Assembly (NCBI GenBank): GCA_902586195.1
Contig: CACIGF010000001.1
Location: 186,001-250,000 of the forward strand
Reading direction: 5' to 3'
From: an uncultured beta proteobacterium
Lineage (GTDB): Bacteria; Pseudomonadota; Gammaproteobacteria; Burkholderiales; Burkholderiaceae_A
Length of the DNA stretch: 64,000 bases
Part shown: in pieces, positions 1,482 through 53,469 of the stretch
Layout of the letters: each line of letters starts with the position of its first letter
Numbering within the stretch: position 1 is the stretch's first letter
Program-made: the position numbers and the translations under genes
Notes under the pieces: model-generated
Told to the model about the DNA's origin: nothing
The model's database searches: none
Seen by the model: only the letters and a program-made list of their open reading frames with translations

Positions 1482-1502
1482 TTTTTTTCCTTTAAATTTT
1501 AG

Positions 1503-3011
1503 CTAAACCAATACATTTAATTCGTGTGCAGAGATGATAAAATGTTCTGAACTGATTTTAGGTCCAGAGAGTAGTGTATCTCTCGTACTATTCTGCTCAA
1601 CAATTTCATAATTTTTTCTATTTGTCGGTTTTTCGTCTTTTCCATCTTGTTTTTTATGATTAATATCTAGGTTAGCAACGTCTATGCCAGATTTTTCTAG
1701 GGAATCTCTGAGTCTGGGTAGCCCATCTTGCAAAAGTTCACGCGTTAATAACTGATTGACATTAAAAGAAGCTTCCAGTTGTTTTCCTTTTAGTGTAAGT
1801 TCAATCTCAATACTACCGAGTGTTTTCGGTTTTAGAGAAAGGTTTATTTTCCATTCTCCTCTCTTAATTTGTTGAATAATCCGTTTTGCGACATTTTCTG
1901 CCAACTTTTCGGATAGTTTCAAGTACTGTTCGTAGCGTTTGAGGTCAACAGAATCCGATCCATTGTCCTTGCTACTGTTTTGGTTTTGGGAGCTTAGATC
2001 ATTACTTAAGTGTGTCGCAGATATTCCTTCAGAGGAGAGACTCGAATTAACATTATTGTTTGTAGTGTCAACTTGGCTCGGGGTATTTACATGGTAATTC
2101 GTAGCGACTTTCACTGACCGTATTAAAATACGCATATCATTTTCTAGGTCAACATCATGCTCTCTGTCTTTACTTTCTTCCTTAGTTATTTTCGAACCAA
2201 AGTTTTTCACTAGTTTTTCTCGTAATTTTTCAAAATCTAATTCATCTTGTCCCTCTGATTCCAAATGTTTCTCTTTTTCAAATGCAAACCACTTTTCGCT
2301 ACTCTTCTCTTTTAAAGGCAATTCAGTTCGTAGAGATAACTTGGGACTATTCTCTAAGATGTTTCGTTTAAGATAACCGGTTTTGATTTCTGATTTTTCT
2401 GACGATTCATCAGTTTGAAATTGGCCCTTTATTTTAGTCAAGGGAGTCGGTTGAATGTGAGATTTTTCCTGTCGATCGACTGCATTAGAAATAGCTATAT
2501 TTCTTATCGAAGCTAAAAGCTGCATCTTTGAGAAATTTTTACTCTTGCTGTTATTTTTGAAGAGTAATTCAATTGCCTTTTGATTAAGCCCCATTTTTTT
2601 TGCATATGACAAAATCTGTGCTTCATTTATTTTTTGGTTGTTATCCGTAATAATCTGCGTGTTTAAGCCAATATCCATCGTGTCTAAATCAATTTTACTC
2701 CCTAACTCCATAATAGGAAGAACCTCAAACTCCTCTGATAGTTGTTCATCAGGGTTAGAAACATTTGCATTCGAGGTTTCTCTTAAATTCATAAAATCTT
2801 CCAGATTTTTTATTTCATCAACTTTGGTAAACTCAGGGTTGCCAGACTCGGCAATTAATTTCCCTTTATGCATTAAAAGTTTTAACTGGTGTAATATTTG
2901 CTCGAAGTTCTTTTTGTTATTAAAATCTCCTTTTTTAACTTTAAAATCGTCTAATTTATCTTTATTTTCACTAATTACATTAGAGTTGATTATCTTTATT
3001 TCATTTGTCAT
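1503..3011 (-). CDS. fliK: FliK flagellar hook-length control protein
   Basis: FliK is the exported molecular ruler that fixes hook length and switches export specificity through FlhB. The product is 502 residues: a long, poorly conserved, Ser/Asn/Lys-rich N-terminal ruler and a C-terminal Flg_hook domain (about residues 365-455) with the diagnostic pattern LSLKPKTLGSIEIELTLKGKQL and GLPRLRDSLEKSGIDV. I prefer ATG 3011; an in-frame TTG two codons earlier (3017) is possible. A sigma-54 -24/-12 element ends about 40 bases upstream. It is first in fliK-fliL-fliM and divergent from flhA. The low conservation of the N-terminal part is normal for FliK. Confidence 0.88.
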   Translation of the reverse strand: MTNEIKIINSNVISENKDKLDDFKVKKGDFNNKKNFEQILHQLKLLMHKGKLIAESGNPEFTKVDEIKNLEDFMNLRETSNANVSNPDEQLSEEFEVLPIMELGSKIDLDTMDIGLNTQIITDNNQKINEAQILSYAKKMGLNQKAIELLFKNNSKSKNFSKMQLLASIRNIAISNAVDRQEKSHIQPTPLTKIKGQFQTDESSEKSEIKTGYLKRNILENSPKLSLRTELPLKEKSSEKWFAFEKEKHLESEGQDELDFEKLREKLVKNFGSKITKEESKDREHDVDLENDMRILIRSVKVATNYHVNTPSQVDTTNNNVNSSLSSEGISATHLSNDLSSQNQNSSKDNGSDSVDLKRYEQYLKLSEKLAENVAKRIIQQIKRGEWKINLSLKPKTLGSIEIELTLKGKQLEASFNVNQLLTRELLQDGLPRLRDSLEKSGIDVANLDINHKKQDGKDEKPTNRKNYEIVEQNSTRDTLLSGPKISSEHFIISAHELNVLV

Positions 3012-3050
3012 GATCAATTTCCAGAAAAGATTTTATGTTTCTATATTTTT

Positions 3051-3067
3051 AGCAAGCATTAGGCCAT
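3051..3067 (-). promoter_or_regulatory. Sigma-54 promoter for fliK-fliL-fliM
   Basis: Read on the minus strand, TGGCCTAATGCTTGCT has GG at 3065-3064, ten bases, then GC at 3053-3052, which fits the RpoN -24/-12 consensus TGGCAC-N5-TTGC. It lies about 40 bases before the fliK start, so transcription would begin near 3040. It is an inverted copy of the element at 3103-3119. Activation would need an enhancer-binding protein such as FleQ/FlrC, which is not visible here. Confidence 0.72.
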
Positions 3068-3102
3068 AAAGCTAAGTTCAATAAAAAGTTTTTGTAAACA
3101 TC

Positions 3103-51682: not shown

Positions 51683-51704
51683 AAAAAAAAAAAAAAAAAA
51701 AAAA
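51683..51704. repeat. 22-base poly-A homopolymer
   Basis: Twenty-two consecutive A on the plus strand between trxA and the SRP RNA. The RNA starts about 25 bases later, so the tract falls at or just upstream of where its -35 box should be. Length variation could change promoter strength, and the exact count may also be a sequencing error. Confidence 0.9.
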
Positions 51705-51728
51705 GAAATCAATTGGTAAACTTATGTA

Positions 51729-51819
51729 GCGGGCTTATTACATTACTTGAAATGTCAATCTGGTCAGGTCGGAAACGGAGCAGCCAAGGCACTTGATAGT
51801 AAGTGTAAGTGTAGCCCGC
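51729..51819 (+). ncRNA. ffs: Signal recognition particle RNA (4.5S)
   Basis: The SRP core is clear: GGTCAGGTC, a tetraloop, then GGAGCAGCCAAGGCA. The ends pair perfectly (GCGGGCT at 51729-51735 with AGCCCGC at 51813-51819), and the intervening arms TATTACATTACTTG and AAGTGTAAGTGTA also pair, giving an RNA of about 91 bases. The apical loop is GAAA closed by G-C instead of the usual GGAA closed by C-G; both are GNRA. It lies directly before dnaX, a common position. It carries the Ffh protein. Confidence 0.9.
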
Positions 51820-51843
51820 GCGATTAATCAAAGGAGAGCAAAA

Positions 51844-53469
51844 ATTTCATATACGGCGTTAGCTCGTTCATTGCGCCCAAACAAATTTGCATCGGTAATT
51901 GGGCAGGAATTAGTTGTGAGGGCCCTTACCTACTCAGTAAGGTTGGGGAATTTGCACCATGCTTATTTGTTAACCGGAGGAAGGGGTGTCGGAAAAACAA
52001 CCTTAGCGAGGTTGATAGCAAAGGCGTTGAACTGCGAACGTCCTGAAAATGGTGATTGCTGCGGCACATGTGACAGTTGTAAAAACATTGAGGAAGGTTC
52101 TTTTTTAGATGTTATCGAGCTGGATGCTGCTTCACACAGAGGAGTCGAAGAAATCCAGACGTTCTTTGAGCAACTCCGTTATCCGCCATCATTAGGAAAA
52201 ATGAAAGTAATAATAATTGACGAAGTACACATGTTAAGTAGTCATGCTTTCAATTCGATGTTGAAGACGCTTGAGGAACCTCCTAATTACGTTGTTTTCG
52301 TCTTAGCAACCACGGAACTCAACAAGGTGCCACTAACGGTGGTATCGCGGTGTGTAAAATTTAGTTTGCAAAATATCCCGACCAGTAAAGTTCACGACTA
52401 CTTAGTTGCCGTTTTTGAAAAAAAAAATATCAAGTTTGATGATGATGCACTTGAGCCAATAGCTTCCGCTGCTTTTGGCAGTTTGCGAGATGCGCTATCT
52501 ATTTCTGAGCAGGTTATTGCTGTATCAGGGGATAACTCTATTGCACTGTCAACAGTTTTTGAGATTTTAGGTTTGATATCGAGTGAAACTTTAGAAAGTC
52601 TAGTCGCGGCTATTGTAAAAAATGATGTAGCGGAAGCTTTAAAAATCTCCAATGATGCCCTGAGCAAAGGAGCTTCTGCTGAAACAATTCTTGATCAACT
52701 AGCGACTGTTTTCCATGAAATCTGCCGAACAAAGATTTTAAAATCTGTTGGAAAGGGACAAGAAGGGAACGTTGTTATAGCAGACGAGATGCCTGTTACA
52801 GAAACAGACGCTAACTTGTTTTATCAGATATGTCTATTAGGAAAGAGGGATTTGCATTTAGCTCCAAATGAGTTAGTGGGTTTACAAATGACGATTCTTC
52901 GGATTTTAGCCTTTCTTCCTGAGAGCCTTCTTTTTCAAAAAAAAAAGTCGATAGAGACAAAATCCCATGACTATATAATATCAGGTGAACAGGACGTTGG
53001 ATTTACTCATAGCTCTGCATCGGGGGATGAAAAATGTATCTCTGTTAATGTGAGTAGTGCTTTGGGAAAGCTATTTAGGAAACTAGATACCACCACATGG
53101 CCTCATTTTGTGAAAAAATTAGGGGGCAATGGACTAGTAAAGCAGTTTTTATCGCAATCAGAATTAGTGAGCGTTAAGTACTCAAAACCTAGTTCTGTAT
53201 GCCTTATAAAAATTGACTCGTCATTTCTCATGGATTCGGATTTAGTGGAAAAAGTTAATTTCTATGTTTCGGATAAAATAGGTGAACCAGTCGAATTTAA
53301 AACAGAATTTTTTGACAAAGTCGAGTCATCTCTTTTGATGATTGAAAAAGGTGAAAAGGAAAATTCAATCAATGAAGCCTATGCAATAATTTCAAAATCC
53401 GACGTAGTAAACGCTTTTATCAGGCGATTTGATGGAAAGGTGTTGAGAGATTCGATAAAAATTGATTAA
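51844..53469 (+). CDS. dnaX: DnaX, DNA polymerase III tau (and gamma) subunit
   Basis: DnaX is the clamp-loader ATPase. The 541-residue product has Walker A GGRGVGKT (45-52), a zinc module (CERPENGDCCGTCDSC), VIIIDEVHML, and sensor 1 LATTELNKVPLTVVSRC, then domain III and, after about residue 375, a short tau-like C-terminal domain. The start is unusual: the family opening SYxxLARxxRP begins right after ATT 51844, which lies seven bases after AAGGAG. No ATG, GTG or TTG fits; the only in-frame TTG upstream (51793) is inside the SRP RNA. I annotate an AUU start. An A10-G run is at 52937. Confidence 0.92.
   Translation: MSYTALARSLRPNKFASVIGQELVVRALTYSVRLGNLHHAYLLTGGRGVGKTTLARLIAKALNCERPENGDCCGTCDSCKNIEEGSFLDVIELDAASHRGVEEIQTFFEQLRYPPSLGKMKVIIIDEVHMLSSHAFNSMLKTLEEPPNYVVFVLATTELNKVPLTVVSRCVKFSLQNIPTSKVHDYLVAVFEKKNIKFDDDALEPIASAAFGSLRDALSISEQVIAVSGDNSIALSTVFEILGLISSETLESLVAAIVKNDVAEALKISNDALSKGASAETILDQLATVFHEICRTKILKSVGKGQEGNVVIADEMPVTETDANLFYQICLLGKRDLHLAPNELVGLQMTILRILAFLPESLLFQKKKSIETKSHDYIISGEQDVGFTHSSASGDEKCISVNVSSALGKLFRKLDTTTWPHFVKKLGGNGLVKQFLSQSELVSVKYSKPSSVCLIKIDSSFLMDSDLVEKVNFYVSDKIGEPVEFKTEFFDKVESSLLMIEKGEKENSINEAYAIISKSDVVNAFIRRFDGKVLRDSIKID
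52937..52947 (+). other. A10-G slippery tract in dnaX (possible gamma-producing site)
   Basis: Ten A then G (frame CAA AAA AAA AAG, codons 365-368). Slipping by -1 reads about seven further codons to TGA; slipping by +1 meets TAG almost at once. Either yields about 370-376 residues, domains I-III, the size of the gamma subunit core. No clear downstream hairpin was found. Confidence 0.5.

Follow-up and report, generated by a model that had tools for sequence, protein, structure and literature searches.

Among the closest systems described so far is infC, the gene of initiation factor IF3, which starts at AUU, AUC or AUA (AUH) and is autoregulated. In E. coli, an AUU start limits the chromosomal gene pcnB (Binns and Masters 2002, in the account given by PMC13009471). 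Four non-canonical start sites have been mapped in S. aureus, where AUH codons with an extended Shine-Dalgarno sequence, located by ribosome profiling, are used by cvfC1 (AUU), ccpN (AUA) and citZ (AUA), two of them conserved, and where AUU/AUA starts yield about 10% of AUG in poor medium (PMC13009471). IF3 represses near-cognate starts of the AUU/AUA type, and for the stress sigma factor gene sigR of Streptomyces, which starts at GUC (GTC) and has a misleading canonical codon upstream, this repression was demonstrated (PMC5472188).

The dnaX gene considered here resembles infC in that an AUH codon follows a Shine-Dalgarno sequence and is conserved in the lineage, and in this genus infC, too, has AUA or AUC as its start codon (AUA by the exclusion test described below). 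Unlike IF3, DnaX is no translation factor and hence has no feedback on its own start, and control of dnaX by IF3 is putative. The codon is the same as in pcnB, while gene and lineage differ, and a misleading canonical codon upstream is found as in sigR. In contrast to the S. aureus sites, the Shine-Dalgarno sequence is an ordinary one and the start is predicted from sequence. A near-cognate start is thus of a known kind; for AUU on dnaX in this clade, no earlier report was found in the open literature searched.

Initiation site of dnaX

The window, that is, the whole stretch of 64,000 nucleotides that was analysed, comes from an uncultured beta proteobacterium. It was compared with a set of 61 genomes, of which eight belong to the same genus; in this set, G000 is the window genome, G001 is SGYQ01000001 (Burkholderiaceae MED-G174) and G006 is JAOINB010000004 (Betaproteobacteria AH-736-P17). 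The features of the locus, in window positions, are the following.

51727..51824, + strand: bacterial small SRP (4.5S) RNA, immediately 5' of dnaX (Rfam RF00169, 60.5 bits)
51793..51795, + strand: TTG that was rejected as a start; it lies within the SRP RNA, and in G006 a stop codon separates this position from dnaX
51831..51836, + strand: Shine-Dalgarno AAGGAG, seen in the sequence, with counterparts in all six clade members
51844..51846, + strand: very probable AUU initiation codon of dnaX (exclusion in G006, G005 and G002; ATT/ATC kept in the clade; NCBIfam position 1)
51844..53469, + strand: dnaX, DNA polymerase III tau, 541 aa (TIGR02397; Pfam DNA_pol3_delta2 and DNA_pol3_gamma3)
52937..52947, + strand: A10G run, codons 364-367, predicted tau/gamma slippage or -1 frameshift site, containing A_AAA_AAG

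The product scores 386.9 bits with TIGR02397, against a cut-off of 250, and carries PF13177 (DNA_pol3_delta2) and PF12169 (DNA_pol3_gamma3). ATT 51844-51846 is a near-cognate codon, one position off AUG, and lies 7 nt 3' of AAGGAG, which is a working Shine-Dalgarno distance. The frame around it reads ...NQRRAK-I-SYTALARSLRPNKF; the next codon, TCA (S), opens the conserved SYTALARSLRP, and the stretch directly 3' of the ATT, TCATATACGGCG, is the beginning of the DnaX opening SYTALARSLRPNKF. In the NCBIfam models PRK14949, PRK14957 and PRK14955, position 1 aligns with the ATT residue, and other models begin one residue after it. An earlier note on this DNA had proposed a start at this codon, one codon before SYTALARSLRP and seven bases past AAGGAG, and both its coordinates and its reasoning were found to be right.

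From the upstream stop to the motif, the window contains a single in-frame ATG, GTG or TTG, namely TTG 51793. Initiation there would give the longest canonical ORF, with a 17-residue extension, and both a TTG and an ATG are also present at the corresponding place in SGYQ01000001. However, this TTG lies within the SRP RNA, a matching codon is absent from G005 and G002, and in G006 a stop codon and an indel separate its position from the ATT. The stop codon refutes the TTG 51793 start for the clade, and we consider it highly improbable. The indel, of 1 nt in the leader between the SRP RNA and the ATT (G006 compared with G000), occurs between close relatives and thus indicates that this leader is not coding in the dnaX frame.

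Another option is a start further downstream, at the next in-frame TTG, which falls inside SLRP, or later, the conserved opening then being untranslated. The SLRP TTG is found in G000, G001 and G003, but G006 has TTA in its place, and G005 and G002 likewise lack a TTG there. It is also not preceded by a Shine-Dalgarno sequence, and its use would remove SYTALARS, the opening of the family, whose protein sequence is conserved. This start is just as improbable as the one at TTG 51793.

It could also be argued that a sequencing or assembly error masks an ATG, since the genome is a draft and the start is near homopolymers. However, five genomes that were assembled separately share the identical codon and a sixth has ATC, which refutes an error at this position and leaves it a negligible probability.

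In three of the six clade genomes (G006, G005 and G002), a stop codon precedes the dnaX ATT/ATC by 5-19 codons, and no in-frame ATG, GTG or TTG is present from this stop to the ALAR motif. With canonical starts excluded in these three relatives, AUU/AUC conserved, the Shine-Dalgarno spacing kept and the family models in agreement, we assign AUU 51844 as the dnaX start codon with high confidence. The earlier note had thus been correct that no normal start is available nearby, that TTG 51793 should be dismissed and that the downstream TTG would cost the conserved opening; confirmation of the sequence and a check of the codon in relatives, both of which it had suggested, showed ATT in four further assemblies and ATC in one more.

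Conservation and history of the codon

The dnaX start column contains ATT in G000, G001, G006, G003 and G002, and ATC in G005, and in all six genomes the codon is located 4-8 nt after a Shine-Dalgarno sequence. In G004, dnaX has an ATG and a different, longer N-terminus, while a full dnaX match was not found in G007. In the sister genera, the dnaX start is ATG or GTG and lies about 20 codons farther upstream, and more distant families of the order have ATG exactly in the start column, with MSYxxLARKWRP (MSYRALARKWRP, MSYLVLARKWRP, MSYQVLARKWRP). In a tree of DnaX, GlnS and IF3, the six AUU/AUC genomes are recovered as a single clade with a support of 0.982, whose sister group is G004 plus G007, and DnaX identity among the six falls as low as 42%. 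On these comparisons, dnaX of a small-genome Burkholderiaceae clade almost certainly begins at the very rare AUU or AUC.

The simplest history would be that AUH initiation of dnaX arose once and then persisted. The weak codon would have been fixed in the ancestor of the six-genome clade, as the N-terminal extension of the sister genera was lost, and would since have been retained as AUU or AUC. It is important to note that third-position G amounts to 18% in the window genome and that four deep lineages all without AUG are expected by chance in about 45% of cases, so that the conservation of AUH is by itself no proof of selection for weakness. The neutral-drift test on the third base of the start codon was not significant.

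Leader and A run of dnaX

The SRP RNA is found upstream of dnaX in 18 of the 19 relatives searched. A terminator scan between the two genes found none in the window, where they are probably transcribed together. Such cotranscription is not general, since G002 has a terminator-like hairpin in the interval. The fold of the dnaX leader is unremarkable (z -0.94). A run of 22 A is present at window 51683-51704, ending 22 nt 5' of the SRP RNA, and close relatives have an A-rich stretch at the matching place.

Within dnaX, the A10 at 52937-52946 is located just past domain III, and both other frames stop within 8 codons. A run of A10-A14 at dnaX codons 364-393 is present in all six clade genomes. The run in the window resembles the Thermus dnaX slippage site, in this case from sequence alone, and satisfies the Thermus-type criterion of at least 9 A with nearby stops in both other frames; it also contains the E. 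coli frameshift heptamer A_AAA_AAG (PMC5009743). From these two similarities, both gamma and tau are probably made from dnaX.

In G005, the reading frame of dnaX (1501-3100 of its locus) changes past an A14 run; since the downstream part is in another frame, tau in this genome would need slippage, unless the assembly is wrong. The sole plausible ATG of rpiA (G000:C1:256668) is out of frame with the gene across an A11 run identical in G000, G006 and G001, and rpiA expression seems to require slippage on that run. The rpiA gene of G005 has an in-frame ATG and a shorter A run.

Other near-cognate starts and a possible role of IF3

Stop-to-stop ORFs of the window genome were surveyed against G001, G002 and G008 for homology upstream of the first canonical codon, and this exclusion survey was followed by an orthologue comparison for the flagged genes. 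Among 396 genes for which distant homologues were available, 16 were flagged, but many of these have ATG or TTG as their true start. Besides dnaX, the genes without a canonical start by the exclusion test are rsfS and rfbD (both AUU), infC and a glcD-like gene (both AUA), an mbhDE-like gene (AUC) and glnS, which makes seven out of roughly 400 surveyed. By comparison, E. coli has two named AUU cases and S. aureus the four mapped sites, fewer in both species (PMC13009471).

The start of rsfS (G000:C1:138749-139081) is ATT where G002, G007 and G027 have TTG and farther relatives ATG, and the column is CTG in G008 and G010; this variation would fit a preference for weak starts in the gene of the ribosome silencing factor. 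The mbhDE-like antiporter gene (G000:C2:33591-34142) has ATC in G000, G001 and G006, ATA in G005 and G007 and ATT in G002, about 7 nt past a Shine-Dalgarno sequence; in G002, G005 and G007, a stop precedes the codon at a distance of a few codons. For glnS (G000:C1:316005-317195), no canonical in-frame start was found; five genomes of the genus read CTG in the start column, while G000 and G006 have CTT there, or would use the ATA that follows. The rfbD start is ATT in three genomes and ATG in four, and for the glcD-like gene three genomes have ATA, others TTG or ATG. The domains found in these near-cognate-start genes are RsfS, MbhD/MbhE, RmlD and FAD_binding_4.

The control genome G008 gave no flags, compared to six in 142 shared pairs. 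Since polA among these six is an alignment artefact and rpiA a frameshift, and since rsfS of G008 has a CUG start that fell below the flag threshold, the control is small and not clean, and the excess of near-cognate starts in the clade is suggestive only. What we claim from these sequences is that such starts recur in the clade, and nothing beyond recurrence. The earlier note called AUU starts very rare and named infC and pcnB; their confinement to such cases does not hold, given several other genes of this clade.

As to what permits these starts, an altered initiator tRNA was considered as the cause and rejected, as its sequence is normal, with the GGG/CCC anticodon stem retained in G001-G006. 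In IF3, R131K is shared by the whole genus, and M135I (GREMAH to GREIAH) is found exactly in the AUU/AUC-dnaX clade. As a candidate cause, M135I tracks the clade, but the correlation comes from a single clade and is given no weight here, and because K131 and I135 occur in Firmicutes IF3 too, it is only a lead; a paper on IF3 M135I was not found in the literature searched.

These data bear on a scenario in which AUU is indeed the start but discrimination is relaxed throughout the clade by an altered IF3 or ribosome, such that the codon on dnaX is tolerated drift and not regulation. The six further genes and the two IF3 substitutions are in its favour. Nevertheless, the initiator tRNA is normal, a usable canonical start is present in nearly all of the 396 surveyed genes, infC itself retains a non-AUG start and the IF3 residues are shared with Firmicutes, so we find the scenario rather unlikely, if a serious one.

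The likeliest role of the codon is instead that of a weak, IF3-discriminated start that probably throttles dnaX. The ordinary initiator fMet-tRNA would read AUU 51844, guided by the normal Shine-Dalgarno sequence, and the product would be the 541-aa tau with fMet as its first residue. The weak AUU would lower DnaX synthesis from the message directly 3' of the SRP RNA gene and would render it sensitive to IF3. A response of DnaX output to IF3, as suggested in the earlier note, is plausible because discrimination by IF3 is known (PMC5472188). The sequences themselves show the codon, its spacing and conservation, the lack of other usable starts and a normal initiator tRNA; the cotranscription, the reduced yield, the IF3 sensitivity and the adaptive reason are steps that we infer. 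Taken as a whole, the explanation comprising the AUU start, a single origin in the clade, a lowered DnaX yield and IF3 sensitivity appears quite likely to us.

One can speculate further that dnaX, rsfS, rfbD, mbhDE, the glcD-like gene, glnS and infC may constitute a standing set of IF3-responsive near-cognate genes, together with IF3 R131K and M135I. This is a tentative proposal, which we would not expect to hold in full; if true, replication, ribosome silencing and glutaminyl-tRNA supply would be tied to the level of an initiation factor.

Finally, annotation normally proceeds from ATG, GTG and TTG only, and pipelines will therefore misplace the dnaX start in these genomes. A conserved AUU/AUC on the essential clamp loader gene, beside other near-cognate starts, constitutes a natural test system for the question of whether IF3-discriminated codons serve bacteria as a gene set or are isolated curiosities.
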